A DNA stretch of 64,000 bases. Origin: Herbidospora sakaeratensis. GTDB lineage: Bacteria; Actinomycetota; Actinomycetes; Streptosporangiales; Streptosporangiaceae. Where the stretch lies: the NCBI RefSeq assembly GCF_001570525.1, contig NZ_BBXC01000012.1, positions 252,576 through 316,575 of the forward strand, read 5' to 3'. Positions 1 through 14,038 of this stretch are shown here, piece by piece. Both the position numbers and the translations under genes were made by a program. The notes under the pieces are model-generated. The model saw only the letters and a list, made by a program, of their open reading frames with translations, did no database searches and was not told the origin of the DNA. Positions within the stretch are counted from its first letter, which is position 1, and each line of letters begins with the position of its first letter.

Positions 1-666
1 GAGCTGGGGGCGCGGCTGGTGGTGGCGTCCGTACAGGACTCGATCGACGCCGGCCGCGTGGTCGAGGAGACCGGGCGGCGCGCCTCGCGCAACCGGCTCC
101 AGACCACCACCCTCCTCGACGCGATCGAGGAGCACGAGTTCGACGCCGTGTTCGGCGGCGCGCGCCGCGACGAGGAGAAGGCCCGCGCCAAGGAGCGGGT
201 GTTCTCCTTCCGCGACGACTTCGGCCAGTGGGACCCGAAGAACCAGCGTCCCGAGCTCTGGAACCTCTACAACGCGAAGATCCGCAAGGGTGAGCACATC
301 CGGGTCTTCCCGCTGTCCAACTGGACCGAGCTCGACGTGTGGGACTACATCCGCCGCGAGGGCATCGAGATCCCGTCGATCTACTTCGCGCACACCCGCA
401 GCGTCTTCGAGCGCGACGGCATGCTGCTGCCCGACGCCGACGTGGTGCAGCGCGGCGACGACGAGCCGCTGTTCGAGTCGATGGTGCGTTACCGCACGGT
501 CGGCGACATGACCTGCACCGGCGCCGTCTCGTCGAGCGCGGCCACGGTCGACGAGATCATCGCCGAGATCGCCGCCACCCGGATCACCGAGCGCGGCGCG
601 ACCCGCGCCGACGACCGCGCGTCCGAGGCCGCCATGGAGGACCGCAAGAAGGAAGGCTACTTCTAA
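1..666 (+). CDS. cysD: Sulfate adenylyltransferase subunit 2 (3' part; runs off the left edge)
   Basis: This is the C-terminal part of CysD, which with the GTPase CysN makes adenosine 5'-phosphosulfate (APS) from ATP and sulfate. The frame is open from base 1, so the true start lies outside the window; about 221 residues are visible. Family-typical stretches include FGGARRDEEKARAKER, which lies in the ATP-pyrophosphatase-type core, and the motif NWTELDVWDYI. The C-terminus GYF is usual for the family. The stop TAA (664-666) shares one base with the ATG of cysN, so the two are translationally coupled. With three sulfotransferases and an APS kinase nearby, the APS made here may feed PAPS for sulfation as well as assimilation. 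The identification rests on strong family resemblance. Confidence 0.96.
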   Translation, partial: ELGARLVVASVQDSIDAGRVVEETGRRASRNRLQTTTLLDAIEEHEFDAVFGGARRDEEKARAKERVFSFRDDFGQWDPKNQRPELWNLYNAKIRKGEHIRVFPLSNWTELDVWDYIRREGIEIPSIYFAHTRSVFERDGMLLPDADVVQRGDDEPLFESMVRYRTVGDMTCTGAVSSSAATVDEIIAEIAATRITERGATRADDRASEAAMEDRKKEGYF

Positions 667-1910
667 TGGACATCCTTCGTTTCGCGACGGCGGGCAGTGT
701 CGACGACGGGAAGTCCACCCTGATCGGCCGCCTCCTGTTCGACTCCAAGGCGATCTTCGAAGACCAGCTCGAAGCGGTCGAGCGCACCAGCCGCGACCGG
801 GGCACCGAATACACCGACCTGTCGCTGCTGACCGACGGCCTGCGCGCCGAGCGCGAGCAGGGCATCACGATCGACGTGGCCTACCGCTACTTCGCCACGC
901 CGAAGCGGAAGTTCATCATCGCCGACACCCCGGGCCACATCCAGTACACCCGGAACATGGTGACCGGCGCCTCGACCGCCGACCTGGCCATCATCCTGAT
1001 CGACGCGCGCAAGGGCGTGCTGGAGCAGTCGCGCCGCCACGCGTTCCTGACGACGCTGCTGCGGGTGCCCCACCTGGTGCTCGCGGTCAACAAGATGGAC
1101 CTGGTCGACTACTCCGAGGAGCGGTTCGAGGAGATCCGTGAGGAGTTCACTCAGTTCGCGTCGAAGCTGAACGCGAGCGACCTGACCTTCATCCCGATCT
1201 CCGCGCTCCACGGCGACAACGTGGTCTCGCGTTCCGAGAGCATGCCCTGGTACCAGGGCCCGTCGCTGCTCCACCACCTGGAGCACGTGCACATCGCCTC
1301 CGACCGCAACCTGGTCGACGTGCGCTTCCCGGTCCAGTACGTCATCCGCCCCCACAAGACCGAGTTCCACGACTACCGGGGTTACGCCGGTCAGGTCGCG
1401 GGCGGCGTGCTGAAGCCGGGCGACGACGTCATGCACCTGCCGTCGGGCCTGACCACGAAGATCGCCTCGATCGACACCTTCGACGGCCCGGTCACCGAGG
1501 CGTTCCCGCCCATGTCGGTGACCCTGCGCCTCGAAGACGACATCGACATCTCACGTGGCGACATGATCTGCCGGCCGAACAACCAGCCGCAGGTCGCGCA
1601 GGAGGTCGACGCGATGATCTGCTGGATGGCCGACACCGTCAAGCTCAGCCCCCGGGCCAAGCTGACCATCAAGCACACCACCCGCACCGCCCGCGCGCTG
1701 GTGAAAGACCTCCACTACCGGCTCGACGTCAACACCCTCCACCGCGACGAGACCGCCACGAGCCTGTCGCTCAACGAGATCGGCCGGGTGTCGCTGCGCA
1801 TCACCCAGCCGCTGTTCGTCGACGACTACGCCCGCAACCGGCAGACCGGCGGGTTCATCCTCATCGACGAGGCCACCAACGGCACCGTCGGCGCGGGCAT
1901 GATCCTCTAA
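666..1910 (+). CDS. cysN: Sulfate adenylyltransferase subunit 1 (GTPase)
   Basis: CysN is an EF-Tu-like GTPase that drives APS synthesis by CysD. I place the start at the ATG overlapping the cysD stop; 414 residues follow. The G domain shows the P-loop GSVDDGKST (about residues 10-18), the G3 motif DTPGH and the G4 motif NKMD, followed by the beta-barrel domains. The length matches a stand-alone CysN. There is no CysC domain at the C-terminus, so this is not a CysNC fusion; the APS kinase is a separate gene at 12251-13459. The gap of about 97 bases to the next gene may hold a promoter, but I see no clear terminator. Confidence 0.97.
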   Translation: MDILRFATAGSVDDGKSTLIGRLLFDSKAIFEDQLEAVERTSRDRGTEYTDLSLLTDGLRAEREQGITIDVAYRYFATPKRKFIIADTPGHIQYTRNMVTGASTADLAIILIDARKGVLEQSRRHAFLTTLLRVPHLVLAVNKMDLVDYSEERFEEIREEFTQFASKLNASDLTFIPISALHGDNVVSRSESMPWYQGPSLLHHLEHVHIASDRNLVDVRFPVQYVIRPHKTEFHDYRGYAGQVAGGVLKPGDDVMHLPSGLTTKIASIDTFDGPVTEAFPPMSVTLRLEDDIDISRGDMICRPNNQPQVAQEVDAMICWMADTVKLSPRAKLTIKHTTRTARALVKDLHYRLDVNTLHRDETATSLSLNEIGRVSLRITQPLFVDDYARNRQTGGFILIDEATNGTVGAGMIL

Positions 1911-2007
1911 ACCCGGGCCTAGGTAGATCCTTGGCCGTTCGGTGAACGCTTAGTTACTCTCCGCTGTAGCGTCAGCACGTTCCGTATCCACTTCGGGGGT
2001 CGTGCAC

Positions 2008-2919
2008 GTGTCTGACGCTCAGCCGATGATCTTTGTTGGAGGGCTGGGGCGCAGCGGGACGACGCTGCTGGAGCGCCTTCTCGGGGAGCTTCCCGGTGTC
2101 GCGCCGCTCGGCGAGGTCGTCCATCTGTGGCACCGGGGGGTGCGCGCCAACGAGCCGTGCGGTTGCGGGCGGCCGTTCGCGCAGTGCCGCTTCTGGCACG
2201 AGGTCGGCGACCGCGCCTTCGGGGGCTGGCGGCCGGCCAAGGCCGACCGGCTGCTCGAACTGCGCCACAAGGTCGACCGCACCCGCCGCGTGCCGGTGTT
2301 CGTGCTGGGCCTGATCAGCCGAGAGGCCCAGCTGACCGAGTACGTCGCCGCGTATCACCGCATCTACGCGGCGGCGGCCGAGGTCGTGCGCGGCCAGGTC
2401 GTCATCGACTCGAGCAAGCACGCCTCGCTGGCCTACTGCCTGTCGGCCATCCTCGACCTGACGGTCGTCCACGTCGTGCGCGATCCGCGCGCGGTGGCCG
2501 CGTCGTGGCGGCGCAAGGTCGCGCGGCCGGAAGACGGCCGGCCGATGGCCCGGTGGTCGCCCGTGCGCACCGCCGTCCACTGGTTCGTGCAGAACCTCGC
2601 CTACGAGGTGCTGCGCGGCAAGGGCGTGCCCATCGTCCGGGTCCACTACGAAGACCTCGTCGAACAGCCAGCCGACACGCTGCGCGTGCTGGCCGGCAAG
2701 CTCGGGCTGCCCGCCGACCACGAGGCGCTCGCCTTCATCACGGGCCGCACCGCCCGGCTGGGCGTCGCCCACACCGTCTCGGGCAACCCGATGCGCTTCC
2801 ACGTCGGCCGTGTGCGCTTCCGCGACCGGCGCCCCGACCTGCCCTTCCCCCATCGCTGGGCGGTCACGGCGCTGACTCTCCCCCTTCTTCTCTGGTACGG
2901 CTACCGCCTCAATTACTGA
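2008..2919 (+). CDS. PAPS-dependent sulfotransferase family protein (copy 1)
   Basis: This predicted cytosolic enzyme should transfer sulfate from PAPS to a hydroxyl acceptor. The 5'-phosphosulfate-binding loop GGLGRSGTT is at the N-terminus and a 3'-phosphate-binding motif RDPRAVAASWRRK lies about halfway along. A cysteine-rich stretch PCGCGRPFAQC near residue 55 is seen in a subset of bacterial sulfotransferases. GTG at 2002 and GTG at 2008 are both in frame; I prefer 2008 because GGGGGT ends about 7 bases upstream. It lies on the same strand as cysDN, 21 bases before the family 2 glycosyltransferase, suggesting co-transcription of APS synthesis, sulfation and glycan assembly. The acceptor is unknown. 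Confidence 0.85.
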   Translation: MSDAQPMIFVGGLGRSGTTLLERLLGELPGVAPLGEVVHLWHRGVRANEPCGCGRPFAQCRFWHEVGDRAFGGWRPAKADRLLELRHKVDRTRRVPVFVLGLISREAQLTEYVAAYHRIYAAAAEVVRGQVVIDSSKHASLAYCLSAILDLTVVHVVRDPRAVAASWRRKVARPEDGRPMARWSPVRTAVHWFVQNLAYEVLRGKGVPIVRVHYEDLVEQPADTLRVLAGKLGLPADHEALAFITGRTARLGVAHTVSGNPMRFHVGRVRFRDRRPDLPFPHRWAVTALTLPLLLWYGYRLNY

Positions 2920-2940
2920 ACTCCCGATCGGAGGCCAACG

Positions 2941-3804
2941 ATGACCTCGACCGTCGGCGTCGTCATCCCCACCCGTGGTGACCGTCCCCTGCGAGCGACG
3001 ATCGATGGCGTGCTCGCCAACCGCCCGGCCGCCGTCGTGGTCGTCGTCGACGGGGCGCCGTTAGATTCGGTCGACGACGACCGCGTGAAGGTGCTGCCCA
3101 ACTGCCTCAGCCCGGGGCTGCCGGGGGCGCGCAACACCGGCACGGCGGCGCTCGACACCGATCTGGTGGCCTTCTGCGACGACGACGACGTGTGGCTGCC
3201 CGGCAAACTCGACGCCCAGGTCGACCTGCTCCGGCGTACCGGGGCCGAGTTCGCCAGCTGCGGCATCGAGGTCGAATACGGCTCGCGCCGGGTCACCCGG
3301 CTGGCCGGGGCCGACGAGATCACCGCCGCCGACCTGACCCGGTCGCGGATGGTGATGGTGCACGCGTCCACCTACCTCTTCCGGCGCGGCGCGTTGTGGG
3401 TCGACGAGAGCGCGCCGGCCGGCCAGAACGAAGACTGGGACCTGGCCCTGCGCGCCGCCAAGCGCCGGCCGATCGTGCACGTCGACCGGCCGCTCGTGCG
3501 GGTGCGGTGGGGCCGGTCCCACTACGCGACCCGCTGGGCCGACCGCATCAGCGGCCTCGAATGGATGCTGGCCCGCCATCCCGAGATCGCCGACGACGCC
3601 CGGGGCGCCGCCCGCGTCTACGGGCAGCTGGCCTTCCACCACGCCGCGCTTGGGCGGCGCAAGGAGGCCCGGCGGTTCGCCCGGCTCGCCTTCCACTCGC
3701 GGCACCGGGAGCCCCGGGCGGCGCTGGCGCTGGCCGTGGCGGCCGGGCTCGTCTCCGCGCCGGCCGTGTTGAGCGCGCTGCATACCCGCGGCCACGGAAT
3801 CTGA
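2941..3804 (+). CDS. Family 2 glycosyltransferase (GT-A fold)
   Basis: The 287-residue protein opens with VGVVIPTRGD, the typical first strand of GT2 enzymes. A DXD-type metal/nucleotide-sugar motif (CDDDDVW) lies at residues 79-85 and a NEDWDLALRA segment fits the acceptor/base region. No membrane segments are evident, so it is likely cytoplasmic or membrane-associated and adds one sugar to a lipid-linked repeat unit. The ATG follows a GGAGG at 2931-2935. Its stop overlaps the ATG of the WecG-like gene. Codon 41 is TTA (3061-3063), a very rare codon here, so UUA-decoding tRNA supply could limit its translation. Donor and acceptor sugars cannot be told. Confidence 0.85.
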   Translation: MTSTVGVVIPTRGDRPLRATIDGVLANRPAAVVVVVDGAPLDSVDDDRVKVLPNCLSPGLPGARNTGTAALDTDLVAFCDDDDVWLPGKLDAQVDLLRRTGAEFASCGIEVEYGSRRVTRLAGADEITAADLTRSRMVMVHASTYLFRRGALWVDESAPAGQNEDWDLALRAAKRRPIVHVDRPLVRVRWGRSHYATRWADRISGLEWMLARHPEIADDARGAARVYGQLAFHHAALGRRKEARRFARLAFHSRHREPRAALALAVAAGLVSAPAVLSALHTRGHGI

Positions 3805-4592
3805 TGCGCACGCGTATCGTCGCGCCGCCCAAACGGCGGCGCGTCTCCGTGGGAGGGGTGGTCGTCGACCGGCTGACCGAGATCGAGGTGGTCGACCGGG
3901 TGATCGGGGCGATCCGGCGTGGGTCGGGCGGGCACCTGGTGACGCCCAACGTCGACATCTGCCGGGCGTGCGCGCGCGACCCCGCGCTGCGCGCCCTGGT
4001 GCTGCGGGCCACCATCGCGGTCGCCGACGGGATGCCGCTGGTGTGGGCGGCCCGGCTGCTCGGCAAACCGGTGCCGGCCCGGATCACCGGGGCCGACCTG
4101 ATCTGGTCGCTCTCGGAGGCGGCCGCCTTCTACCGGGTGCCCATCTACCTGCTGGGCGGGCCGCCCGGGGTGGGCGACCGGGCCGCCCGCGCGCTGTGCG
4201 AGCGGTATCCCGGGTTGCCGATCGCCGGGGTCGACGCGCCGCCGTGGGGGTTCGAGGAGGACGCCGAGCAGTTCGCCGCCATGCGCGACGCGTTGACGTC
4301 GGCGCGTCCGTTGCTGGTGTTCGTCGGGCTCGGCTTCCCCAAGCAGGAACTGCTGATCGAGCGGCTGCGGGGCGACCTGCCCGAGACGTGGTTCGTCGGC
4401 TGCGGGTCGGCCATCGCGTTCGCCGGGGGCGCCGTGGTGCGCGCGCCGGTCTGGATGCGCGACCGCGGGCTGGAGTGGCTGTTCCGGCTGCTCAGCGAGC
4501 CGACGCGGCTGGCCAGGCGCTATCTCGTCGACGACCTGCCGTTCGCGGTGCGGTTGCTGACGGTGTGCGCGGTGCGGCGGCTCTTCACCTGA
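3804..4592 (+). CDS. WecG/TagA/CpsF-family glycosyltransferase
   Basis: This 262-residue protein resembles enzymes that add N-acetylmannosamine (WecG, TagA) or another hexose to an undecaprenyl-linked sugar. Visible family blocks are TPNVDICRA, the VADGMPLVWAARLLG region containing the conserved aspartate, and ITGADLIWSL, with VGLGFPKQELLIE in the C-terminal half. It starts at the ATG overlapping the GT2 stop (ATGA). It is the last gene of the plus-strand run and ends at a palindrome shared with the convergent sulfotransferase. A membrane-bound glycan is therefore being assembled on a lipid carrier. The sugar specificity cannot be inferred. Confidence 0.9.
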   Translation: MRTRIVAPPKRRRVSVGGVVVDRLTEIEVVDRVIGAIRRGSGGHLVTPNVDICRACARDPALRALVLRATIAVADGMPLVWAARLLGKPVPARITGADLIWSLSEAAAFYRVPIYLLGGPPGVGDRAARALCERYPGLPIAGVDAPPWGFEEDAEQFAAMRDALTSARPLLVFVGLGFPKQELLIERLRGDLPETWFVGCGSAIAFAGGAVVRAPVWMRDRGLEWLFRLLSEPTRLARRYLVDDLPFAVRLLTVCAVRRLFT

Positions 4593-5439
4593 GGGTCAGC
4601 CGGCTGACCCTCTCGGCGTCGGCGGCGGACAGGCGCGACCTGGCCGCCGCCGTTCTGCTGTCGGTGGGGCGGAAGGCCGTCTTCGAGACGCCCCGCCAGG
4701 CGAAGCCCGCGTCCTGGGCCGGGCCGGTGCACGAGCGGGTGATCGTGGCGGCCGAGCGGTCGGTCCAGGGGATGCCGCACCATTCGTACAGGCTGCGGAA
4801 AACGAAGTGCGGATCGGCGGCCAGCGCCTCGTAGGAGACCACCCGGATGTTGGGGTGGCGCATCTGGAGCACCGACTCGTGGGCCGCCTTCCAGAGGGCG
4901 GCCACTTTCTCCAGCCGGTCCCGGGTGTCGGCCAGCTTCGCCACGTGCGGGTGGTCGCGCAGCAGGAGCGGCTGACGCAGCAGGTCGCGGGGGTGCACGG
5001 TCCAGCCGAGATGGTCCCAGCTGCCGGCGAACGTGACCGGGTCGCGGACCAGGATGATCACTCGGCAGTCGAGCCGGTCGGCGAACCACTCGGCCGACCA
5101 GAGCGCGAACGGGTCGTCGAGGAGGGCCCTGCGGCCGGTCAGGCGGCCGTGGGTGAACGCCGTCGCGTATTTCAGGTAGCGGGCCGGGGACGGCGGCCAG
5201 GGGAGTTCGGCGTGCCAGCGGAACCGCAGGCGCAGCGTGTCGTGAAACGGCTTGAGCCAGGCCGCCTCGTTGTCGCGGCAGATGTACTGGAACCGGTGCT
5301 CGACCCGCGCGTTCAGCACGCCTCTATATGGGCGTTCGGGGTTGAGCGGCTCGTTGACGTAGACGAGCTCGCCCGAGGCGCAGAGCATACGACCGGCCCA
5401 CGAGGTGCCGCTGCGGGGCAGTCCGGTGACGAGGATCAT
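4585..5439 (-). CDS. Sulfotransferase family protein (copy 2)
   Basis: The 284-residue protein begins MILVTGLPRSGTSW, which carries the PAPS 5'-phosphosulfate loop (residues 6-13). IILVRDPVTFAGSWDHLGW forms the 3'-phosphate-binding region, so a sulfotransferase role is well supported. The ATG at 5439 overlaps the stop of the upstream flippase gene (ATGA), so it is the last gene of the six-gene minus-strand operon. Its last bases overlap the WecG-like gene and the palindrome. It differs clearly from copies 1 and 3 in the loop sequence and spacing, so the three enzymes are not recent duplicates and probably act on different positions or substrates. Confidence 0.85.
   Translation of the reverse strand: MILVTGLPRSGTSWAGRMLCASGELVYVNEPLNPERPYRGVLNARVEHRFQYICRDNEAAWLKPFHDTLRLRFRWHAELPWPPSPARYLKYATAFTHGRLTGRRALLDDPFALWSAEWFADRLDCRVIILVRDPVTFAGSWDHLGWTVHPRDLLRQPLLLRDHPHVAKLADTRDRLEKVAALWKAAHESVLQMRHPNIRVVSYEALAADPHFVFRSLYEWCGIPWTDRSAATITRSCTGPAQDAGFAWRGVSKTAFRPTDSRTAAARSRLSAADAERVSRLTLR
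4591..4612. terminator. Perfect 22-bp palindrome between convergent operons
   Basis: The sequence reads GAGGGTCAGCC followed directly by its exact reverse complement, with no spacer. It begins inside the stop codon of the WecG-like gene and lies at the 3' end of the convergent sulfotransferase gene. It can fold as a hairpin in RNA from either direction, so it is a likely bidirectional terminator. There is no U-tract. Confidence 0.6.
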
Positions 5440-6914
5440 GCCGTCGCCCTGGCGAGCTGGGTGAGCGGCAGCAGGTTCTTCACGAGCACCCCTCCCGCCC
5501 AGCCGAGCGCCGCGCCGAACGCGCCGTAGGCCGGGACCAGCACCAGATCGAGCCCGACCGTGACGGCCAGCGCGGCGGCGACGTTGCCGAGGCTGGCCCG
5601 GGTCCGCCCCGAGGCGATCATGACGATGTCGGCCATCCCGCACGCGGAGGCGACCATCATCGTGAGGGCCAGCACGATCGCGACGTCGGCCGCGTGTTCG
5701 TAGCCGTCCCCGAAGACACGCAGGATCTGCGGCGCGAAGACGGCGTAGCCGATCCAGAGAGGCCAGGTCAGGGCCATCTGGGTGCGCGCCGCCCGCCGAT
5801 GGAGGGCCCGCGCCGCAGCCGGCTCTCCCTGGGCGAACTTCCTGACCAGCTCCGCCTGTACGCCCTGCGCCAGCCCCTGCCCGACGAGCTGCCCGACCAC
5901 CTTGAAGCGCGTCGCGGCGACATAGAACGCGGCCTCGGCGGGCCCGGCCAGCAGCGCGACGATCACGACGTCGAGCCGCTGGAACACGGCCTGCAACGCG
6001 GCGGCGAGCGACCGGGGCGTGGTGTAGGCCCAGAACTCACGCCACGACACCCGGGTGCCGGTACCCCGCAGCCTGAGGGTGGCGATGATCGTCACCGGAA
6101 CCGCCGGGATTCCCCACGCGAGGATCAGCCAGGGGGCCGACAGCCCGGTGGCCAGCGCGCCACCCACGAGAAGAACCTGGCTGACCGGTTGCACCAGCCC
6201 ACTGAGCAGCAGCGTCTCCCGCATGCCTCCGGTGCCGCGGGTGGCGGCCACCAGAACATCGGCCACCACGACGAAGGGCAACACGAGGGCGAGCGCGGGC
6301 TCGGTGCCAGTAAGGATGACGGAGGTGACAAGCGCTCCGGCGACTACGGGAATCAGCGCCACCGCCAGGAGCGGCCGGGCTGCCGTTGTCCGGAAATTTC
6401 CGGATGACTCCCTGTCTGGAGGTGATGCGGGCAGCCCGCCGCCGGTTGTGCACTCAGCAGCGAAGAGGCCGCCGACCGTCTCGTTGGTTGCAGGGCGTTG
6501 GTCTGTGGGTTGGCGGACAGCGATGGCAGCGGGTCGATCCCGGTCGCCGACCCCGGCACTGCGGACCCCGGCACTGCGGACCCCGGCACTGCGGACCCCG
6601 GCACCGTCGGCCTCGGCAGCGAGCGGCTCTTCGGATGGTCGGCGGGCGCGGAAGTAAATCAGGCCGTTGCCCGTGTCGAGGCGCAGGACCCCTGCCAGCA
6701 TCAGCCCCAGCGTCGTCGTGGTGAAGAACACGCCCGCCTCCGCCGGGGGCAGCGCACGGGTGACCAGCAGGGTGACGGCGAACTGGGCGGCCGCGGTGGT
6801 GCCGGCTCCCGCCAGGCCCGCCAGCGACCTCAGGCCCGCCAGCGACCTCAGGCCCGCCAGCGACCTCAGGCCCGCCAGCGACCTCAGTCCCGCCGGCGAC
6901 CTCAGACGCGCCAT
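5436..6914 (-). CDS. Polysaccharide flippase (Wzx/MATE-like) with repeat insertions
   Basis: This 492-residue multi-spanning protein resembles oligosaccharide flippases: about 12 hydrophobic segments, with an N-terminal membrane block VTLLVTRALPPAEAGVFF typical of Wzx proteins. It should move a lipid-linked repeat unit across the membrane. The start is taken at 6914, which overlaps the 3' end of the upstream sulfotransferase gene. Two odd features are seen. The N-terminus has five copies of the hexapeptide LRSLAG, from an 18-bp tandem repeat (6814-6903). A hydrophilic insert of about 80 residues, including an AGVRS pentapeptide repeat from a 15-bp repeat (6551-6610), lies between early membrane segments. 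Both repeats preserve the frame, so copy number could vary without breaking the gene. Confidence 0.82.
   Translation of the reverse strand: MARLRSPAGLRSLAGLRSLAGLRSLAGLRSLAGLAGAGTTAAAQFAVTLLVTRALPPAEAGVFFTTTTLGLMLAGVLRLDTGNGLIYFRARRPSEEPLAAEADGAGVRSAGVRSAGVRSAGVGDRDRPAAIAVRQPTDQRPATNETVGGLFAAECTTGGGLPASPPDRESSGNFRTTAARPLLAVALIPVVAGALVTSVILTGTEPALALVLPFVVVADVLVAATRGTGGMRETLLLSGLVQPVSQVLLVGGALATGLSAPWLILAWGIPAVPVTIIATLRLRGTGTRVSWREFWAYTTPRSLAAALQAVFQRLDVVIVALLAGPAEAAFYVAATRFKVVGQLVGQGLAQGVQAELVRKFAQGEPAAARALHRRAARTQMALTWPLWIGYAVFAPQILRVFGDGYEHAADVAIVLALTMMVASACGMADIVMIASGRTRASLGNVAAALAVTVGLDLVLVPAYGAFGAALGWAGGVLVKNLLPLTQLARATA
6551..6610. repeat. 15-bp tandem repeat inside the flippase gene
   Basis: Three exact copies of CCCCGGCACTGCGGA (6551-6565, 6566-6580, 6581-6595) are followed by one degenerate copy. 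The unit is a multiple of three and encodes the pentapeptide AGVRS on the minus strand, in a hydrophilic insert of the flippase. Confidence 0.95.
6814..6903. repeat. 18-bp tandem repeat at the 5' end of the flippase gene
   Basis: Four exact copies of AGGCCCGCCAGCGACCTC (6814-6885) plus a fifth copy with two mismatches (6886-6903). Read on the minus strand it encodes LRSLAG repeats in the N-terminal extension before the first membrane segment. Confidence 0.95.
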
Positions 6915-7723
6915 GAAGGGGTCGCGTCGAGCCACGACAGCAGCAGGGCGTCCCACGGCAGGAAGTGCTCCGACAGGCGGGTGCGCAGAGCGCGGGGGAT
7001 CGGGGCGTGGGGGCGGGCGTTGTGGCGGTCGAAGACGGGGTCGGCCATCGGGGGGAGGCCGAGGAACGACAGCAGGTCGTCGTAGACGGGCATCGGGTCG
7101 GCGAAGAAGCGGCCGCTGTCGATGACCTTGACGCGGTCGCGGGCGATCACCGGTTCGAGGCGGGCGAGTTGTTCGGCGTAGCGGCCCCGGGCCAGGTAGG
7201 CGTGGTGGCGGTGGGCGTGGCTCGACGACAGCGGGGCCGCGCACAACCGGGCGCTCTCCCCGGCCAGGCGCTCGGGCTCCAGGTCGACCGCGCGGGCGAA
7301 CGACGGCTCCGACTCGAAACCCCGGGCCAGCTCGTGGGCGTGGGCGGAGACGGCGCGTTCGACCGGATCCCGGACCAGCACGATCAGCTTCACGTCCGGC
7401 AGGTCCCAGGCGATGCGGGGGCCGGCCAGCGGGTGGAACAGGTAGTAGGGCGACGACTCGAACGCCAGCAGGCCCGGCCGCCGCAGCGGGAAGTGGGCCC
7501 GATACCAGGCCAGGCCACGCCCGTAGGCCATGTCGAAGTAGTGCACGCCCTTGCGCAGCACCGGCTTGGCCACCATCGGGTGTTGCGACAACGCCCGGTA
7601 GAGGGAGGTCGTGCCGCACCGCTGCGCGCCCACGATGAGGAACGACGGGAGCATGCGGGCGCCCCCGGTGAGCCGCCCCGCCGTGATCGATACGGCGTGG
7701 GCGGTCGTCTTCAGCGCCTTCAC
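6902..7723 (-). CDS. Sulfotransferase family protein (copy 3)
   Basis: The 273-residue protein has the PAPS-binding loop IVGAQRCGTTSLYRAL near residue 30 and a 3'-phosphate-binding segment LIVLVRDPVERAVSAHAHE further on. This pattern matches sulfotransferases of the Sulfotransfer_1 type, including enzymes that sulfate glycans. The start is GTG at 7723, which overlaps the stop of the upstream kinase-like gene (GTGA). Its 3' end overlaps the flippase start by 13 bases, so the genes are tightly coupled. It is the second of three sulfotransferases within about 5.7 kb. The acceptor is unknown; a role in decorating the polysaccharide repeat unit is an inference from position. Confidence 0.87.
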   Translation of the reverse strand: MKALKTTAHAVSITAGRLTGGARMLPSFLIVGAQRCGTTSLYRALSQHPMVAKPVLRKGVHYFDMAYGRGLAWYRAHFPLRRPGLLAFESSPYYLFHPLAGPRIAWDLPDVKLIVLVRDPVERAVSAHAHELARGFESEPSFARAVDLEPERLAGESARLCAAPLSSSHAHRHHAYLARGRYAEQLARLEPVIARDRVKVIDSGRFFADPMPVYDDLLSFLGLPPMADPVFDRHNARPHAPIPRALRTRLSEHFLPWDALLLSWLDATPSWRV

Positions 7724-8625
7724 GTCAGGGGTTCCAGCCCGTCGACGGCGGGGTTCAGCCACTTCGCGGGCGACCCGAGCGGCTCGTGGCCGGCGGCGCG
7801 GTGGCGTTCGGCCAGCGTCATCAGGTAGGCGGCGGCGGTCACGCGGGCCTCTTCGAAGGAGAGCCCGTAGGGTTCCAGCAGCCGGCCCGACTGCGCGACG
7901 CACGCCTTGGCCGCCGACGCGGGGCGCATCCGGCGCAGGGCCGTCTGGAAGAAGTAGTGCAGCGTGTCGAAGCCCGGCGGCACGCCGGTGCCGAACCGCT
8001 CCCAGTCCCAGACCAGCAGCCGGTCGCCCATCGGGGCGACGTTCCACGGCGAGAAGTCGCCGTGCCAGGCGCCCTTGCCGAGCGCGGCGATCTCCTTGGC
8101 GGCGGCCGCGAGCAGGTCGGCCGACGGCCGGCCCTTCGTGACCGGCAGCGGCGTCAGGACCAGCACGTCGAGGTCGCGCCACACCCCGTGGTGCATGACC
8201 TTGGGCGCGACGACGACGTCGAACGGGTGGCGGGCGATGGCCCGCAGCGTGTCGGTCTCGTGGCGGATCAGGTCTCTGGTGTGCGGCTGGTCGCCGATCT
8301 TCACGAAGGCCAGCAGGCCGGTGTCGTCGTGCAGCTCCAGGACGGGTTTGCGGTTCGCGCGGCGGGCCGGGCGCACGTGCAGCGTGGCCCTGACCCGGCG
8401 GCCGAGCACGTCGCCGAGGTGCGTTTCGATCGTGTCGGGCCCGTCGGGGACCAGCACCCGCCCGCCGACATGCCAGGGCGCGCGGGGCACCAGCCGCCGG
8501 GGGACGAGCCGGCTCGGCACCAGAGTCCGGGCCGAAGAAGTGGTGGACGGCGGGAACAGCAAGGAGATCACCTCATCCAGGTAGCGCAGACGTATGCGGA
8601 AGTCCTTCACGTCGCGTTCCGCCAC
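7720..8625 (-). CDS. APH/choline-kinase-fold phosphotransferase
   Basis: This 301-residue protein carries a Brenner-type catalytic motif HGDFSPWN and a following metal-binding VWDWERFG, the signature of aminoglycoside phosphotransferase/choline kinase folds. An N-terminal lobe with LLAFVKIGD could provide the ATP-binding lysine. It has no membrane segment or signal peptide. The GTG start at 8625 lies inside the 3' end of the polymerase gene, and its stop overlaps the start of sulfotransferase copy 3. By position it may phosphorylate a sugar, lipid or other small precursor of the polysaccharide. An antibiotic-modifying role is possible for the fold but not favoured by context. The substrate is unknown. 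Confidence 0.75.
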   Translation of the reverse strand: MAERDVKDFRIRLRYLDEVISLLFPPSTTSSARTLVPSRLVPRRLVPRAPWHVGGRVLVPDGPDTIETHLGDVLGRRVRATLHVRPARRANRKPVLELHDDTGLLAFVKIGDQPHTRDLIRHETDTLRAIARHPFDVVVAPKVMHHGVWRDLDVLVLTPLPVTKGRPSADLLAAAAKEIAALGKGAWHGDFSPWNVAPMGDRLLVWDWERFGTGVPPGFDTLHYFFQTALRRMRPASAAKACVAQSGRLLEPYGLSFEEARVTAAAYLMTLAERHRAAGHEPLGSPAKWLNPAVDGLEPLT

Positions 8626-9881
8626 AGGACCGCGAACGAGATCAGATAGAGGGTCAGGGCACTGACGAGGCCGTCGTAAATGAACATGTAGAAGAGGACG
8701 AGGAGCATGACCAGGCTCCCCGCCTGCCCGATCGGCGACCGATCATGCCAGTGCCGCCTGACCGCCCCCGCGAAGAAGGCGACGTACAGGGCCGCCCCGG
8801 TGAAACCCTGGGTGATGAGCAGCAACCAGAGCTGCCCGTCGGAGCCCAGGGGAGGGTGCCCGCACGACCGGCACCAGTCGGTGCGGCCGGTGGTGATCGT
8901 GCGGTGGTTCCCGAACGCGTTGCGGGTGTTGCCGTAGCCGATGACCGGCGAGGTGGCGGCGACCTCGACCGTGGTGGCGACGGTGAAGGCGCGGATGTCG
9001 TTGGAGTGGGGCCGGTCGACCCGCGCCGCCACGACCTGGCCCAGCGGCGAGAACACGAACGCCGCCGCGGTGGCGGCCGCGAGGGTCAGCAGGCCCGCCC
9101 GGTTCCGGTTCCTGACGATCAGGTACGCCAGCCCGATGGCGATGGCCGCCCACAGTCCCCGGTTGAGGGAGTGCACGATCGGCACCGCCGCGATGAGGAC
9201 CGCGACCACCGCGACCGCTCGACGGGCGGGCCCTCCGTAGACCCACCAGCCGACGACGAACCAGACCAGCAGGATCGAGGCGTTGCCGCCCCAGGCGTTG
9301 GCCCACTCGAACGGCGCCTCCGGCCGTGGGGCCGGGTGGCCCAGCACGTACTGGATCTGCGCGGCCGTCGGGTGGACGAGGTTGGTGACGAAGGCGTGGT
9401 CGGGCAGCAGGTGCTCCATCGGCGCGGTGAACTCGAACTCCGGCGCGAGGATGCCCAGCAGGCCACCGGCGACGGTGGTGAGGAAGAGCACGCCCAGCAT
9501 CCTGACCAGGGCGAGCTGGGGCAGCTCCTCCTTGGTGAGGTTGCCCAGATAGAGCACGACGACGAGCAGCGCGACGTAGACGGTGAGCCGCATGGCCCAC
9601 CCGACGACCCGCCCCATGCCGAACTCGCCGTACGTCCCGGCGGGCGTGGCGTCGAGCATGACCGCGCTGATGAGGTAACCGACGATGAGCAGCGCCCACA
9701 GTCCCATACCGCGCGGGATCCTGATCGGCCGCCGTAACCAGAGCACGACGGCCATGGGCACGGCGACCACCACGATGGACAACCCGCCGAACCCGAGGGC
9801 CCACCAGAGGGGGTAACCCACGAGGAACGCCGCGATCGGCCACGCGGCGGGTGCGAGTCGCCCCGTCGTTCCCCAGGTCAC
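8607..9881 (-). CDS. O-antigen polymerase/ligase-like membrane protein (Wzy/WaaL type)
   Basis: The 424-residue protein has around ten hydrophobic segments and a long central extracytoplasmic loop, as in Wzy polymerases and O-antigen ligases. A segment ending in SPVIGYGNTRN fits the conserved SPxxGxG-type stretch of the Wzy_C family. It should polymerise repeat units after flipping, or ligate the glycan to an acceptor. GTG at 9881 overlaps the upstream Wzz stop as GTGA, which decides the start. Codon 49 is TTA (9735-9737), rare in this genome. It overlaps the downstream kinase-like gene by 19 bases. Confidence 0.82.
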   Translation of the reverse strand: MTWGTTGRLAPAAWPIAAFLVGYPLWWALGFGGLSIVVVAVPMAVVLWLRRPIRIPRGMGLWALLIVGYLISAVMLDATPAGTYGEFGMGRVVGWAMRLTVYVALLVVVLYLGNLTKEELPQLALVRMLGVLFLTTVAGGLLGILAPEFEFTAPMEHLLPDHAFVTNLVHPTAAQIQYVLGHPAPRPEAPFEWANAWGGNASILLVWFVVGWWVYGGPARRAVAVVAVLIAAVPIVHSLNRGLWAAIAIGLAYLIVRNRNRAGLLTLAAATAAAFVFSPLGQVVAARVDRPHSNDIRAFTVATTVEVAATSPVIGYGNTRNAFGNHRTITTGRTDWCRSCGHPPLGSDGQLWLLLITQGFTGAALYVAFFAGAVRRHWHDRSPIGQAGSLVMLLVLFYMFIYDGLVSALTLYLISFAVLWRNAT

Positions 9882-11089
9882 AGCAGATCTCGGCGCTGTT
9901 GCGGGATGTCGACCGTCGGGGGCTGCTGCGAGCGCAGCGCGTCGACCGCCAGCGTGCCGGGGGCGCCCGCCGGGTCGACGGCGACCACGCCCAGGACGTC
10001 GACGCCCCGGCGCTTCAGCGACTTGGCCGAGCGGATGACCCACGGCGCGCGGATCCGGCCCAGCGCCACGGCCAGCACGGCCGCGTCGGTCGGCCCGGCC
10101 GTGACCAGCAGGACGCCGCCGCCCGGCGGGAAGCCCTCCTCCAGCGTCCAGGCCACGTGGGCCGGTTCGACCCCCAGGCCCTCGACCAGCACGCTCCGGT
10201 GCCCGGCCGCCGTCACCACGGCGGCGAACTCCTCGCCCTGGGGAAGCAGGGCGAGGTTGGTCAGCCGTTCGACGTCGGCCGGGGTTCGGAGGCGGAGGTC
10301 GGAGCGGTCGCGGGCGAAGGCCGCTCCCACGCCGAGCAGGATGCCGGCGAAGAGGCCGCCGCCCACGTACAGGGCGGGGCGCGGTTCGCTGGCCGTCTCC
10401 GGCGGAGACGCGGGGGTGATCACGGTCCCGGGGGTGACCGCGGTGGTCTTCAGCACGTCGTACCGGAGAGTGAGCGCGGTCGCCTGGCGGGTCAGCACGG
10501 TCTGCTGGTGGGCGGCCAGGGCACGTTGCGGGCTGCCCTTCGGGTGCCGCGACATCGTCACGAGCGCGGTGCCGAGCTGGCTGTTGACCAGTCGGAGCTT
10601 GGCCAGGATCGCCCGCCTCTGCTCGGTCAGCAGCGCCTCGGCCGCCGCCAGGCGGTTGGCCAGGTAGGCGTCGGCGAACGCCTGCGCGCCCCGGGCGGCC
10701 CCGGCGGCGTCGGGCCAGGTGAACGAAATCCGAAGAATTCCCGAATTGGGCGGCACATCAACGGAAACCTGCCCCCGAAGGTCTTCCGGGGCGCCTCCAA
10801 TAACACGTGACGCATTCGTCGCGACCACGGACGATTGTGCGATCTGCGCCTCGGTGTCGAGATTGAGAGCTTCGCGCTGCCGGGCGGTCACCACGTTCTG
10901 CGGCTCGCCGAGCCCGGTCGGGGCCACCTGCACCTCGGCCACCCCGAGGTAGGCCGTCGGGGCCTGCCACAGCAGGGCGACGCCGCCTGCCACGCCCAGG
11001 AACAGGCAGGTCAAGGCGATGATCCAGCGACGGCGGAACACGGAGCCGTACTCCGCGAGATCCCGGCTGTGCGGCGGTGGCAGGCTCAT
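9878..11089 (-). CDS. Wzz-like polysaccharide co-polymerase without an active kinase domain
   Basis: A first membrane segment (about residues 24-45) and a second (about 237-258) flank a mainly helical extracytoplasmic domain, the architecture of chain-length determinants. After the second segment about 140 residues remain. This region looks like a decayed BY-kinase: it keeps a strand-like GGGVLLVTAGPTDAAVLAVAL block but has no recognisable Walker A GxxGxGK(T/S) lysine and no tyrosine-rich tail. It is the first gene of the six-gene minus-strand operon. It likely sets chain length together with the Wzy-like protein. No phosphatase or separate kinase partner is seen in the window. Confidence 0.8.
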   Translation of the reverse strand: MSLPPPHSRDLAEYGSVFRRRWIIALTCLFLGVAGGVALLWQAPTAYLGVAEVQVAPTGLGEPQNVVTARQREALNLDTEAQIAQSSVVATNASRVIGGAPEDLRGQVSVDVPPNSGILRISFTWPDAAGAARGAQAFADAYLANRLAAAEALLTEQRRAILAKLRLVNSQLGTALVTMSRHPKGSPQRALAAHQQTVLTRQATALTLRYDVLKTTAVTPGTVITPASPPETASEPRPALYVGGGLFAGILLGVGAAFARDRSDLRLRTPADVERLTNLALLPQGEEFAAVVTAAGHRSVLVEGLGVEPAHVAWTLEEGFPPGGGVLLVTAGPTDAAVLAVALGRIRAPWVIRSAKSLKRRGVDVLGVVAVDPAGAPGTLAVDALRSQQPPTVDIPQQRRDLL

Positions 11090-11273
11090 GTCGGTCTCCG
11101 ATGGGGGTGAAGCGACTACGAACCCTAGCCGGGTGCGGTGATTACCCCGGTGCTAATTACAGAATTTCTGCTGGCGAATCACGGAACAATAACGGCGATT
11201 CGCCGGACATGTCGGAGCTGCGTTCTGCAAAAGGAGGCCACATGTTCTCCCCCGGCAGTGGAAAGGTGAATCC
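11090..11273. promoter_or_regulatory. Divergent intergenic region between the Wzz operon and the GH26 gene
   Basis: This 184-base gap has lower GC than its surroundings and must hold the promoters of the minus-strand polysaccharide operon and of the plus-strand hydrolase. An inverted repeat GGCGAATC (11173-11180) ... GATTCGCC (11197-11204) has a 16-base loop and could be an operator or an RNA hairpin. An A-purine-rich stretch AAAAGGAGG (11228-11236) sits too far from the chosen ATG to be its ribosome site. No known riboswitch was recognised. Confidence 0.45.
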
Positions 11274-12362
11274 ATGCGCTGGGCGATGACGGTGGTCGTG
11301 GTGATGGTGGCGGGCTGCTCCCTGGCTTCGGGGGCCGCCGAGCGGAAGGTCCCCAAAGCGGAGCCGCCGATCGCCGCGCCCTGCGCCGTCACCGGCGTGC
11401 TGATCCCCACCTGCGGCGCCTGGTGGGGCATCGCGCCCGAGGTCTTCACCGGCCGGGGCCCCGTGCGCGGCCTGCAGCGGGCCGAGCAGCGCATGGGCCG
11501 CCGCGCCGACATCCTGCACGTCTACCACCGCGCCGGCGAGCTCTTCCCGACCGACGAGGAGCGCGCGCTCGCGAAAGACCGGCTGCTGCTGGTCAACTGG
11601 AAGCCGTCACTGCGTCACACCTGGGCCGAGATCGCGTCTGGCGCGCTCGACCGGCGCATCGACAAGCTGGCCGCGCACATCTCGGCCACCTTCCCGCAGC
11701 GGTTCTTCCTGACGATCCACCACGAACCGGAGAACGACGTCCGGCCTGTCGAGGGCATGGCCGCCGACGACTACGCCGCGATGTTCCGCCACGTCGTGCT
11801 GCGCCTGCGGCAGAAGGGCGTCACCAACGCGGTCACCGTGATGACCTACATGGGCGCGCCCAACTGGTCGTCGGCGTCGTGGTTCGAACGGCTCTACCCG
11901 GGCGACGCGGTGGTCGACTGGATCGGCGTCGACCCCTACGCCGACGACCGCGTCACCGACTTCGCCTCGCTCGTCGACAAGCGCCGCCCCGACCACCCCG
12001 GCTGGCCGGGCTTCTACCGCTGGGCCCAGTCGCGCTTCCCGGCCAAGCCGATCATGGTCGCCGAGTGGGGGGTCTTCGAGCGGCCCGGCGTCAAGGCCGC
12101 CTTCTTCGACTCGGTACGCCGCCAGATAGCCGCCTACCCCCAGATCAAGGCCCTGGTCTACTTCGACTCCCCGTGGGCGCCCCGGGGCGACACGCGGTTC
12201 GACACCACGCCCGACGCCGCCGAGGCGTTCCGGCGGCTCGGGAACTCGCCCTACCTGACCCAGCCGCCGGTCGTCAGGGCGTTCATCACCAGCGAGACCG
12301 CCCGCTCGACCGGCAGGCCGGTGGTGTCGATCTCCAAATCGGCGTCGTCGGGCTCCTCGTAG
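11274..12362 (+). CDS. Secreted GH26-like glycoside hydrolase (lipoprotein)
   Basis: The 362-residue protein starts with a lipoprotein signal ending in VAGC (Cys about residue 15). The body resembles GH26/mannanase-like enzymes: HHEPEND is the acid/base region and MVAEWGVFE the nucleophile region of a TIM barrel. It would act at the cell surface on a beta-linked polysaccharide, possibly trimming or releasing the glycan made by the adjacent cluster; such hydrolases are common in exopolysaccharide loci. A purine-rich GGAAAGG lies 8 bases before the ATG. Oddly, its last 112 bases overlap the 3' end of the convergent APS kinase gene, and its final 35 or so residues look unlike a fold end. Confidence 0.75.
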   Translation: MRWAMTVVVVMVAGCSLASGAAERKVPKAEPPIAAPCAVTGVLIPTCGAWWGIAPEVFTGRGPVRGLQRAEQRMGRRADILHVYHRAGELFPTDEERALAKDRLLLVNWKPSLRHTWAEIASGALDRRIDKLAAHISATFPQRFFLTIHHEPENDVRPVEGMAADDYAAMFRHVVLRLRQKGVTNAVTVMTYMGAPNWSSASWFERLYPGDAVVDWIGVDPYADDRVTDFASLVDKRRPDHPGWPGFYRWAQSRFPAKPIMVAEWGVFERPGVKAAFFDSVRRQIAAYPQIKALVYFDSPWAPRGDTRFDTTPDAAEAFRRLGNSPYLTQPPVVRAFITSETARSTGRPVVSISKSASSGSS

Positions 12363-13459
12363 GGGGCCGAGACGCCGGTGAAGTCGGAGATCAGCCCGGC
12401 GCGGGCCTTGGCGTAGAGGCCCTTGCGGTCGCGGCGCTCGCACTCCTCGACGGGGGTGGAGATCCACACCAGCAGGAAGTCGGCGCCGACCTCCTCGGCC
12501 ATCTCGCGGGCCTCCTCGCGGGTGTGGGCGTGCGGCGCGATCGGCGCGCAGATGGCCAGGCCGCCGTGCCGGGCGACCTCCGCGGCGACGAAGCCGATCC
12601 GGCGGATGTTCAGCTCGCGGTCTTCGGCCGAGAAGCCCAGCCCCTTCGACAACAACCGCCTGACCACGTCGCCGTCGAGGTAGGTGACCGTCCGGCCGCC
12701 CTTCTCCAGCAGCGCGTCGCGCACCCCCCGCGCCACGGTCGACTTGCCCGACCCGGAGAGCCCGGTGAAGAACACGACCAGGCCGCGCCGGTGCGGCGGC
12801 CCGGGGATGCGGACCGGGGCCGGACCGGCGTAGTGCTCGGTCGCGCCGTAGTTGCGGGCGACGTGCTCGCGCAGTTCCAGGTCGATCTCGACGTCCTCGC
12901 GCGGCGCCAGCGGGACCGCCACCACCTGCGAGCCGGGCAGTTCGGCCTGCGCCTTCAGCGCGGCCCGCACCACCGCCGGCCCGGCCTCGCCGAACACCAG
13001 CGGCATCAGCAGGACCGTCGCCTCCAGCTCCTCGGCCGTGGCGGCGACGTCGGCCAGCGCCGGCCCGTCGAGCGGCCCGCGCATCGTGACCGCCAGCACC
13101 TCGCCCTCGGCCTTCACCTCGTCGGGAGTACGGCGCAGCCGCGCGAACGGCCCGTAGACGGGCGCGCCCAGCGCCTCGACCGGACCCGCCGCGTGGTGCC
13201 CGTCGCGCTCGGTCACGGTCAGCACCGCCAGCGCGGCCCCCTCGGGATCGGTGAGGGTGACCTTGTCGCCGACGGCGATCTCGTCGGGCAGTGCGATCGT
13301 GATGGGGTCGGGCCACGGGGCGCCGTCGGCGAGCGTGCCCGTCTCCTCGACGGAGGTGGCGTCGGCCTTCCCGAGGAAACCGGTCAGCGGCGCGAACGCT
13401 CCCGAGAGAAGCAGTTCGAGGTCGGCCAGTTCGCGGGCGTCGGGGGTCCAGTCGGTCAT
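12251..13459 (-). CDS. cysC: APS kinase with N-terminal degenerate ATP-sulfurylase-like domain
   Basis: The C-terminal half is a complete APS kinase, making PAPS from APS: P-loop FFTGLSGSGKST, LDGDVVR, and the family segment RKGLYAKARAG. The first 220 residues match the PUA-like N-domain of ATP sulfurylase (ADLELLLSGAFAPLTGF, LADGAPWPDPITI). The following catalytic domain is shrunken: the QxRNP and HxxH-type motifs are not there, and the RNYGxTHFIVGRDHAG block is reduced to RNYGATEHYAGP. The N-domain is therefore probably non-catalytic. The start is ATG at 13459. Its product PAPS is the donor for the three nearby sulfotransferases. It overlaps the GH26 gene tail to tail by 112 bases. Confidence 0.88.
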   Translation of the reverse strand: MTDWTPDARELADLELLLSGAFAPLTGFLGKADATSVEETGTLADGAPWPDPITIALPDEIAVGDKVTLTDPEGAALAVLTVTERDGHHAAGPVEALGAPVYGPFARLRRTPDEVKAEGEVLAVTMRGPLDGPALADVAATAEELEATVLLMPLVFGEAGPAVVRAALKAQAELPGSQVVAVPLAPREDVEIDLELREHVARNYGATEHYAGPAPVRIPGPPHRRGLVVFFTGLSGSGKSTVARGVRDALLEKGGRTVTYLDGDVVRRLLSKGLGFSAEDRELNIRRIGFVAAEVARHGGLAICAPIAPHAHTREEAREMAEEVGADFLLVWISTPVEECERRDRKGLYAKARAGLISDFTGVSAPYEEPDDADLEIDTTGLPVERAVSLVMNALTTGGWVR

Positions 13460-13543: not shown

Positions 13544-14038
13544 GTGGACTCGGCGGCAGAACTGCGTTTCCGCGAATTCGTGGCCGCGAGATCCCCTGCC
13601 CTGATGGGCCTGGCCTATCTGCTGACGGCCGGCGACCAGCACGCGGCCGAGGATCTGGTGCAGTCGTCCCTGGTCAGAGCCCTGGGGAAGTGGACGCAGG
13701 TCGAAGACCCCGAAGCCTACGTGAAGCGGGTCATGTACCACCAGCACGTCAGCCTGTGGCGAAGGGCCTGGCGAAGACACGAGACCACCGTCGCCGACCT
13801 CCCCGAGAGGGGCGCCGACGACGCCACCCGCACGGTCGAGTTACGCCTGGCCCTGCGCGAGGCGCTGGCCACCCTCACCCGGCGGCAGCGCGCCATGCTC
13901 GTGCTCCGCTACTACGAGGACCTGCCCGAAGAGGAGATCGCCCGCGTCATGGGCTGCTCGATCGGCACGGTCCGCAGCACCACCCACCGATCACTGGCCA
14001 AGCTGCGCTCCCAGGACCTGAAGGAGCTGACCCGATGA
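13544..14038 (+). CDS. SigE-family ECF RNA polymerase sigma factor
   Basis: The 164-residue protein has a sigma region 2 (FVAARSPALMGLAYLLTGD-type start, then AEDLVQSSLVRA) and a region 4 helix-turn-helix (LPEEEIARVMGCSIGTVRST), with no region 1 or 3. This is the SigE (M. tuberculosis-independent, actinobacterial SigE-family) ECF pattern. AGGAGG at 13533-13538 ends inside an upstream in-frame GTG (13538) and is correctly spaced from GTG 13544, so I choose the latter. Codon 100 is TTA (13841-13843). Its stop overlaps the ATG of the next gene, a membrane protein that likely acts as its anti-sigma factor. Targets are unknown. Confidence 0.92.
   Translation: MDSAAELRFREFVAARSPALMGLAYLLTAGDQHAAEDLVQSSLVRALGKWTQVEDPEAYVKRVMYHQHVSLWRRAWRRHETTVADLPERGADDATRTVELRLALREALATLTRRQRAMLVLRYYEDLPEEEIARVMGCSIGTVRSTTHRSLAKLRSQDLKELTR

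Follow-up and report, generated by a model that had tools for sequence, protein, structure and literature searches.

What does an actinomycete make from a locus in which genes for sulfate activation enclose genes for the assembly and export of a glycan? Such a locus ends at position 13,459 of the stretch studied here, 64,000 nucleotides of Herbidospora sakaeratensis (the window; locus coordinates are window positions). An earlier note on this DNA had proposed that the cell makes a sulfated Wzx/Wzy-type glycan from a self-contained cluster of a kind little described in actinobacteria. We hold with good confidence that the Streptosporangiaceae have long kept this locus for a sulfated Wzx/Wzy glycopolymer, which most likely serves in the matrix or on the surface of spores and their carriers. 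The role is suggested by homology, because by sequence comparison the Herbidospora locus is homologous to the wps-1 cluster of Actinoplanes missouriensis plus the gene AMIS_7390. In the paper that describes it, published in June 2026, wps-1 is presented as a predicted sulfated-exopolysaccharide cluster required for normal sporangia (PMC13390465); with a homologous cluster in print since then, "little described" is outdated.

Gene calls together with Pfam and NCBIfam profile searches found every gene that the note had named. Percentages in the following list are identities to the A. missouriensis counterpart in the best local BLAST alignment; APS and PAPS stand for adenosine 5'-phosphosulfate and 3'-phosphoadenosine 5'-phosphosulfate.

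1..666, + strand: 3' part of cysD, sulfate adenylyltransferase small subunit (PF01507 95.8 bits on 19-666; gene call -185..666, with its start left of the window).
666..1910, + strand: cysN, sulfate adenylyltransferase large subunit (TIGR02034 592.6 bits, cut-off 336.1).
2026..2919, + strand: sulfotransferase ST1, WpsB counterpart (PF13469 59.9 bits; best match of the wps-1 sulfotransferase adjoining GT2, 46%).
2941..3804, + strand: GT2 glycosyltransferase, WpsA counterpart (PF00535 45.8 bits; 54%).
3804..4592, + strand: WecG/TagA/CpsF (GT26) glycosyltransferase, WpsC counterpart (PF03808 178 bits; 50%).
4585..5439, - strand: sulfotransferase ST2, without a wps-1 counterpart (PF13469 50.4 bits; PAPS motifs).
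5436..6914 (revised start), - strand: Wzx-like flippase with strain-specific tandem repeats, WpsG counterpart (PF13440 24.8 bits, cut-off 23; 43%).
6902..7723, - strand: heparan-sulfate-type sulfotransferase ST3, WpsH counterpart (PF00685 44 bits; predicted fold as in heparan sulfate 3-O-sulfotransferase (3-OST) and N-deacetylase/N-sulfotransferase (NDST); 54%).
7720..8625, - strand: aminoglycoside phosphotransferase (APH)/WbdD-like kinase, WpsI counterpart (AlphaFold2 model with a predicted local distance difference test score, pLDDT, of 91.5, and Foldseek matches; HGD....N in 125/125 homologues; 44%).
8607..9881 (revised start, GTG), - strand: Wzy/WaaL-like polymerase, WpsJ counterpart (PF04932 29.6 bits, below the cut-off of 31.7; 39%).
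9878..11089, - strand: Wzz-like chain-length protein, WpsK counterpart (weak GNVR and EpsF matches; 37%).
11274..12362, + strand: GH26-like secreted lipoprotein (PF02156 18.8 bits, below the cut-off of 20.2; 43% to the GH26 gene beside AMIS_7390).
12251..13459, - strand: APS kinase with a truncated, degenerate sulfurylase-like N-terminal part, AMIS_7390 counterpart (PF01583 189.6 bits, PUA_2 64.5 bits, no PF01747; 61%).

The earlier note had suggested extending the window to the left for a priming glycosyltransferase, and such a gene is there. Directly before cysD lie a priming sugar transferase (PF02397 234 bits; TIGR03025 432.4 bits, cut-off 295.55) and a CysQ-like gene (PF00459 above its cut-off; TIGR01331 101 bits against a cut-off of 228.8); pth lies further left of the locus and mfd to its right. 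In the minus-strand run Wzz-Wzy-kinase-ST3-Wzx-ST2, neighbouring genes overlap by 4-19 bases, which suggests that the run is one operon and that two sulfotransferases are co-expressed with the flippase and the polymerase.

BLAST best matches tie GT2, ST1, WecG, Wzx, ST3, the kinase, Wzy, Wzz, the APS kinase and the adjoining GH26 gene to wps-1 and its flank, and the run Wzx-ST3-kinase-Wzy-Wzz-APS kinase is identical in order and direction at 37-61% identity. Unlike wps-1, however, the Herbidospora locus has a third sulfotransferase (ST2) and keeps the priming transferase, cysQ, cysD and cysN within the same locus, whereas wps-1 contains a DUF4262 gene (wpsD), a further GH26 gene (WpsE, 27% to the Herbidospora GH26) and a methyltransferase gene (WpsF). 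Against the proteins of the window set, neither WpsF nor WpsD had a match at E 1e-3. By these sequence comparisons, wps-1 is the closest known kind, and the Herbidospora form is a fuller variant that holds the sulfate half, the priming transferase and the third sulfotransferase together. Most single deletions in wps-1 are reported as severe, those of wpsB and wpsE as milder and that of wpsD as causing no defect; the cluster is turned on early in sporangium formation and the mutant mycelium grows normally (PMC13390465). Among the papers listed in searches of the openly licensed literature, none besides this one (PMC13390465) described a matching cluster, and none listed dealt with a sulfated glycan of these genera.

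The supply of PAPS is encoded within the glycan locus itself. The 402-residue protein encoded at 12251-13459 joins an APS kinase domain to a shortened PUA/sulfurylase-like part. Among its homologues in the fetched neighbourhoods, the Walker A pattern was present in 101/101, and QxRN and HxxH, which we take to be the catalytic motifs of an active sulfurylase, in 0/101. PF01747 has no match in the window protein and a partial match (44.8 bits) in the A. missouriensis APS kinase. With its sulfurylase part shortened and these motifs missing, the protein was rejected as a full bifunctional sulfurylase. A search for cysH, which the earlier note had suggested looking for to the left, found a CysH-type gene on another contig of the same genome, beside a gene that by eye resembles sulfite reductase. 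This CysH has the pattern CC...CxxC, presumably the mark of iron-sulfur APS reductases, and PAPS is therefore probably not needed for cysteine synthesis in this genome. In genomes such as G010, G011, G015, G018, G028, G031, G037, G043 and G044, no APS kinase other than that of the locus is listed at E <= 1e-20; a second is present in the Herbidospora genomes G000, G001, G003, G004 and G005, in the source genome as part of a CysNC-like protein.

Copies of CysD were counted in 20 genomes, six of them Herbidospora and 14 others, and three more fetched genomes were read separately. Each of seven Herbidospora genomes has two or three CysD matches. In 10 of the 14 other family genomes the only match is the one at the locus; of the remaining four, two have their sole CysD on another contig (the locus contig ends) and two have two copies. 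Of the three read separately, G042 has one copy 7.5 kb beyond the fetched stretch, G029 has one about 16 kb away, and G022 has three, one of them at the locus. The only CysD match thus lies at the fetched locus or within 12 kb of it in 11/17 non-Herbidospora genomes. Because the locus CysD is usually the only one found there, cysDN outside Herbidospora must, to judge from these counts, usually also feed sulfate assimilation and cysteine synthesis, and we rejected the idea that cysDN serves the glycan alone. The term "self-contained" is accordingly too strong: PAPS is supplied from inside the glycan locus as proposed, but cysDN is shared with assimilation outside Herbidospora, further sulfotransferases lie elsewhere, and no gene for nucleoside diphosphate sugars was recognised in the locus.

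The supply of PAPS may also account for a phenotype in Actinoplanes. No APS kinase besides AMIS_7390 was found in the A. missouriensis genome. The sulfurylase part of this protein is degenerate, and the CysH found in that genome has CC...CxxC. Loss of PAPS for WpsB and WpsH would therefore be the simplest explanation of the defect that follows deletion of AMIS_7390, beside wps-1, which the authors describe as "unexpectedly" severe and tie to sulfur amino acids (PMC13390465). The mild wpsB deletion is consistent with WpsH as the main user of PAPS.

The only CysD found in A. missouriensis lies at 8.12 Mb, in the order glmU-prs-rplY-pth-priming transferase-cysQ-cysD-cysN, and the last four proteins are 58, 59, 57 and 78% identical to those of Herbidospora. 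This site is far from wps-1, which lies at 0.78 Mb; one locus in Herbidospora is two in Actinoplanes. Because the counterparts of the left half of the Herbidospora locus stay together after pth, the transferase after pth is the strongest candidate for the initiating enzyme missing from wps-1. Another possibility is a sugar transferase within wps-2, but deleting wps-2 is reported to cause no phenotype (PMC13390465).

How widely is this arrangement kept? The comparison of gene order across related genomes, proposed in the earlier note, gave the same order gene by gene in 6/6 other Herbidospora genomes, and the order is also kept in many other genera; on this ground, chance clustering of the locus genes was rejected. 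Identities within Herbidospora are 83-100%, except for Wzx (69-81%) and cysD (81-84%, a figure lowered by the incomplete query). The GH26 gene was recovered by tblastn in 6/6 sister loci at 92-97%; the gene caller had overlooked it, probably owing to its overlap with the APS kinase gene. In the window (12251-12362), these two genes are convergent and their 3' ends overlap by 112 bases. ST3 has matches (E <= 1e-40) in 275 of 341 Streptosporangiaceae genomes and in 51 of 68 genera. Genomes with a Wzy match number 77 among 394 sampled from the class (E <= 1e-10) and 163 among 250 sampled from the family of A. missouriensis (E <= 1e-60).

By the earlier note, close homologues with the sulfotransferases apart from wzx and wzy would speak against its reading; instead, 80/80 named loci have a Wzx or Wzy homologue no more than four genes from the best ST3 match (Wzx in 76, Wzy in 76). 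These are the best 80 of 82 relatives and were found with ST3 itself, and the count measures the surroundings of ST3. The places were fetched in two rounds, 38 from the first list (the top and some distant ones) and then 19 picked by hand; one short stretch (L114) was uninformative. A stretch of Modestobacter (L190) has the order APS kinase, rplY, pth, priming transferase, GT2, ST1, WecG, ST2, Wzx, ST3, kinase and Wzy. The similar order in this genus, again at pth, suggests that the locus is old.

The three sulfotransferase-family genes that had been placed inside a Wzx/Wzy locus with its own PAPS supply were borne out by domains and motifs: ST1, ST2 and ST3 of the window all have the 5'-phosphosulfate loop and the 3'-phosphate motif. 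Counted over all homologues above the score limit in the fetched stretches, truncated gene calls included, the 5' loop pattern is present in 57/106 for ST1, 77/84 for ST2 and 122/130 for ST3, and the 3' pattern in 80/106, 83/84 and 130/130, respectively. The shortfall of ST1 in the 5' loop may be due in part to mis-called starts and truncated gene calls. ST3 is the best conserved of the three. Its 14-row profile matched the bacterial sulfotransferase 3rnl (E 1.9e-30) and heparan sulfate 3-O-sulfotransferase 3A1 (E 2.3e-25), and its AlphaFold2 model (pLDDT 85.4) matched 3rnl, 3-OST and NDST in Foldseek with E down to 1.7e-13; against 3-OST-1 the values were E 6.4e-13 and a template modelling (TM) score of about 0.7. 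Glu89 of ST3 is invariant in both alignments (14 and 19 rows), and the profile aligns it with the 3-OST glutamate that we take to be the catalytic base. The model thus places ST3 in the 3-OST/NDST type of glycan-sulfotransferase fold, with the fold and PAPS-binding motifs of the heparan sulfate enzymes (PDB 1t8t, 6xkg and 1nst) but at only 22-26% identity to them. In the search of solved structures, the matches of ST1 were all short and weak (E 0.02-0.03), and ST2 had no match. The source genome has 12 Sulfotransfer_3 matches in 11 genes, eight of them outside the locus.

Among the assembly proteins, the Wzy/WaaL-like protein is a conserved membrane protein family, and the Wzz-like protein has weak GNVR, Wzz and EpsF matches only. 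The APH-fold kinase had no Pfam match; its AlphaFold2 model matches fructosamine kinase, the kinase domain of WbdD (PDB 4azs and 4ax8; 20-21% identity) and APH structures, which suggests that it phosphorylates a sugar. WbdD terminates O-antigen chains in an ABC-transporter system; unlike WbdD, the Herbidospora kinase has no fused methyltransferase. By identity, Wzx is the least conserved locus gene within the genus. In the window it carries two in-frame tandem arrays, one of 18 bases x 5.6 that repeats LRSLAG near the start (6813-6913) and one of 15 bases x 3.7 in a hydrophilic stretch (6549-6604); in six sister species the start of Wzx has a single LRSVAG or LRSAAG.

From these parts a pathway can be proposed. 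The priming transferase would load a hexose phosphate onto undecaprenyl phosphate, and GT2 and WecG would extend the primed unit. CysDN would make APS, which the truncated sulfate adenylyltransferase (SAT)-APS kinase would convert to PAPS; with it, ST1-ST3 would sulfate the lipid-linked unit in the cytosol, and CysQ would remove the by-product 3'-phosphoadenosine 5'-phosphate. The APH/WbdD-like kinase would probably add phosphate. Wzx would then flip the unit, Wzy polymerise it and Wzz set the length, and the GH26 lipoprotein would trim or release the polymer outside the cell. As to the claim that the cell makes a sulfated Wzx/Wzy-type glycan, the locus, the PAPS supply, the motifs and the folds speak for it; we infer the sulfate on the polymer, as well as the order of the steps, the substrate of the kinase and the role in Herbidospora.

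Several observations weigh against a sulfated glycopolymer of spores and their carriers. Herbidospora is not known to form sporangia, so the Actinoplanes role is not transferable unchanged. Microbispora, Nonomuraea and Micromonospora, which have the locus or its core, are not known to form them either, and for this reason we propose, with moderate confidence, a general role on spores or their carriers. At E 1e-40, 66 of the 341 family genomes have no ST3 match. In the 80 named stretches, the APS kinase was found in 55, cysD with cysN in 40, CysQ in 36 and the priming transferase in 37; 16 of these stretches are shorter than 20 kb, and contig or stretch ends explain an uncounted part of the missing genes. 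In Actinoplanes the locus lies in two parts, and in Microbispora and Sphaerisporangium it is interrupted, these interrupted loci being among the misses. Wzy_C (29.6 vs 31.7), GNVR/Wzz and GH26 (18.8 vs 20.2) score below the Pfam cut-offs, and the 5' PAPS loop is patchy among ST1 homologues. Sulfate in the wps-1 polymer is itself unproven, as its authors state (PMC13390465).

Part of this evidence could be read as the family's housekeeping sulfate activation (cysQ, cysDN and APS kinase) with glycan genes as unrelated neighbours, the sulfotransferases acting on lipids or small metabolites. The usually sole copy of cysDN outside Herbidospora would fit, as would two family genomes (L068 and L075) that keep cysQDN and the APS kinase at this site with no or few glycan genes, the distance of A. 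missouriensis cysQDN from wps-1, and the eight sulfotransferase genes elsewhere in the source genome. However, the genes of ST2 and ST3 belong to one run with Wzx and the kinase gene and overlap them, ST3 stays beside Wzx or Wzy in all 80 named loci even when the stretch has no cysDN, the A. missouriensis APS kinase remains beside the glycan genes whereas cysDN does not, and the modelled fold of ST3 is of the glycan-sulfotransferase type. We consider housekeeping alone improbable. It is very improbable, too, that the sulfotransferase-like proteins are inactive or repurposed and the polymer is without sulfate: sulfate on the polymer is indeed deduced, and ST1 homologues have the 5' motif in barely more than half of cases (57/106), but all three window proteins have PAPS-binding motifs, the 3' motif is complete in ST3 homologues (130/130), and an APS kinase with an invariant Walker A (101/101) is kept alongside.

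A more serious, if doubtful, possibility is a wall-linked anionic polymer of vegetative hyphae, similar to teichuronic acid and not associated with spores, in which sulfate replaces phosphate as the charge. The WecG/TagA family includes teichoic acid enzymes, and genera that differ widely in spore form share the locus. Against this stand the early activation of wps-1 in sporangium formation and the normal growth of its mutants, as reported for Actinoplanes (PMC13390465), and no LytR-CpsA-Psr wall-attachment gene was noticed in the locus, where no dedicated search was made. Returning to the sulfated glycopolymer of spores and carriers, a more specific form of it seems to us about equally easy to credit and to doubt: the pth-mfd locus may be an old actinomycete device that couples the cell's sulfate activation to a developmental glycan, with the priming transferase, cysQDN, the truncated SAT-APS kinase and heparan-type sulfotransferases making a sulfated, perhaps phosphorylated, polyanionic matrix of spores or carriers in most Streptosporangiaceae genera and Actinoplanes. 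If true, this would explain the AMIS_7390 phenotype and name the transferase between pth and cysQ as the wps-1 initiator.

Sulfated polysaccharides are thought to be rare in bacteria, and the 2026 Actinoplanes paper calls them exclusive to cyanobacteria (PMC13390465). Contrary to that exclusivity, sulfated capsules have been published for marine Vibrio and Cobetia (PMC11641403, PMC11766843). Likened by description only, the sulfated polysaccharides of Vibrio sp. KMM 8419 and Cobetia marina KMM 1449 come with gene clusters and are non-cyanobacterial, but their makers are marine Gram-negative bacteria (PMC11641403, PMC11766843). The synechan cluster of Synechocystis PCC 6803, again likened by description, is also a bacterial sulfated-exopolysaccharide cluster for which a sulfotransferase and Wzx are mentioned, but it is cyanobacterial (PMC8205485). 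The present comparison turns one predicted cluster into a locus kept, as judged by ST3, in 51/68 genera of another family, and it offers a likely reason for the open AMIS_7390 phenotype and a candidate for the missing first enzyme.

Some further observations concern sulfate genes outside the locus and the neighbours of the locus. At L005 9693-13750 there is a second cysD with a CysNC-like fusion, close to a short sulfotransferase-like gene and followed further on by a gene resembling nonribosomal peptide synthetases (by eye); these genes may provide PAPS for a natural product. A third cysD-cysN pair follows an amino-acid-kinase-like gene (by eye) at L008 2-3455, with a Sulfotransfer_3 gene about 3 kb upstream. 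In many genera, a TauE/SafE-type transporter gene (L049 15844-16746 and relatives; PF01925 139.5 bits in one copy) adjoins the APS kinase; it was not seen in Herbidospora, and its product may carry sulfate or sulfite.

Between the locus and mfd, a methyltransferase-like gene (window 15246-15917; PF08241 38 bits) is present in most relatives, in 52/80 named stretches. Madurose is a marker sugar of related genera; a link of this gene to madurose was considered, but no evidence for it was found, the gene being also present in L068, which has no glycan genes. Next to the locus (window 13544-15249), in Herbidospora and some other genera, lie a sigma-factor-like and an anti-sigma-like gene, named by eye; the sigma-like gene is present in 22/80 named stretches, and the pair are possible regulators of the locus.

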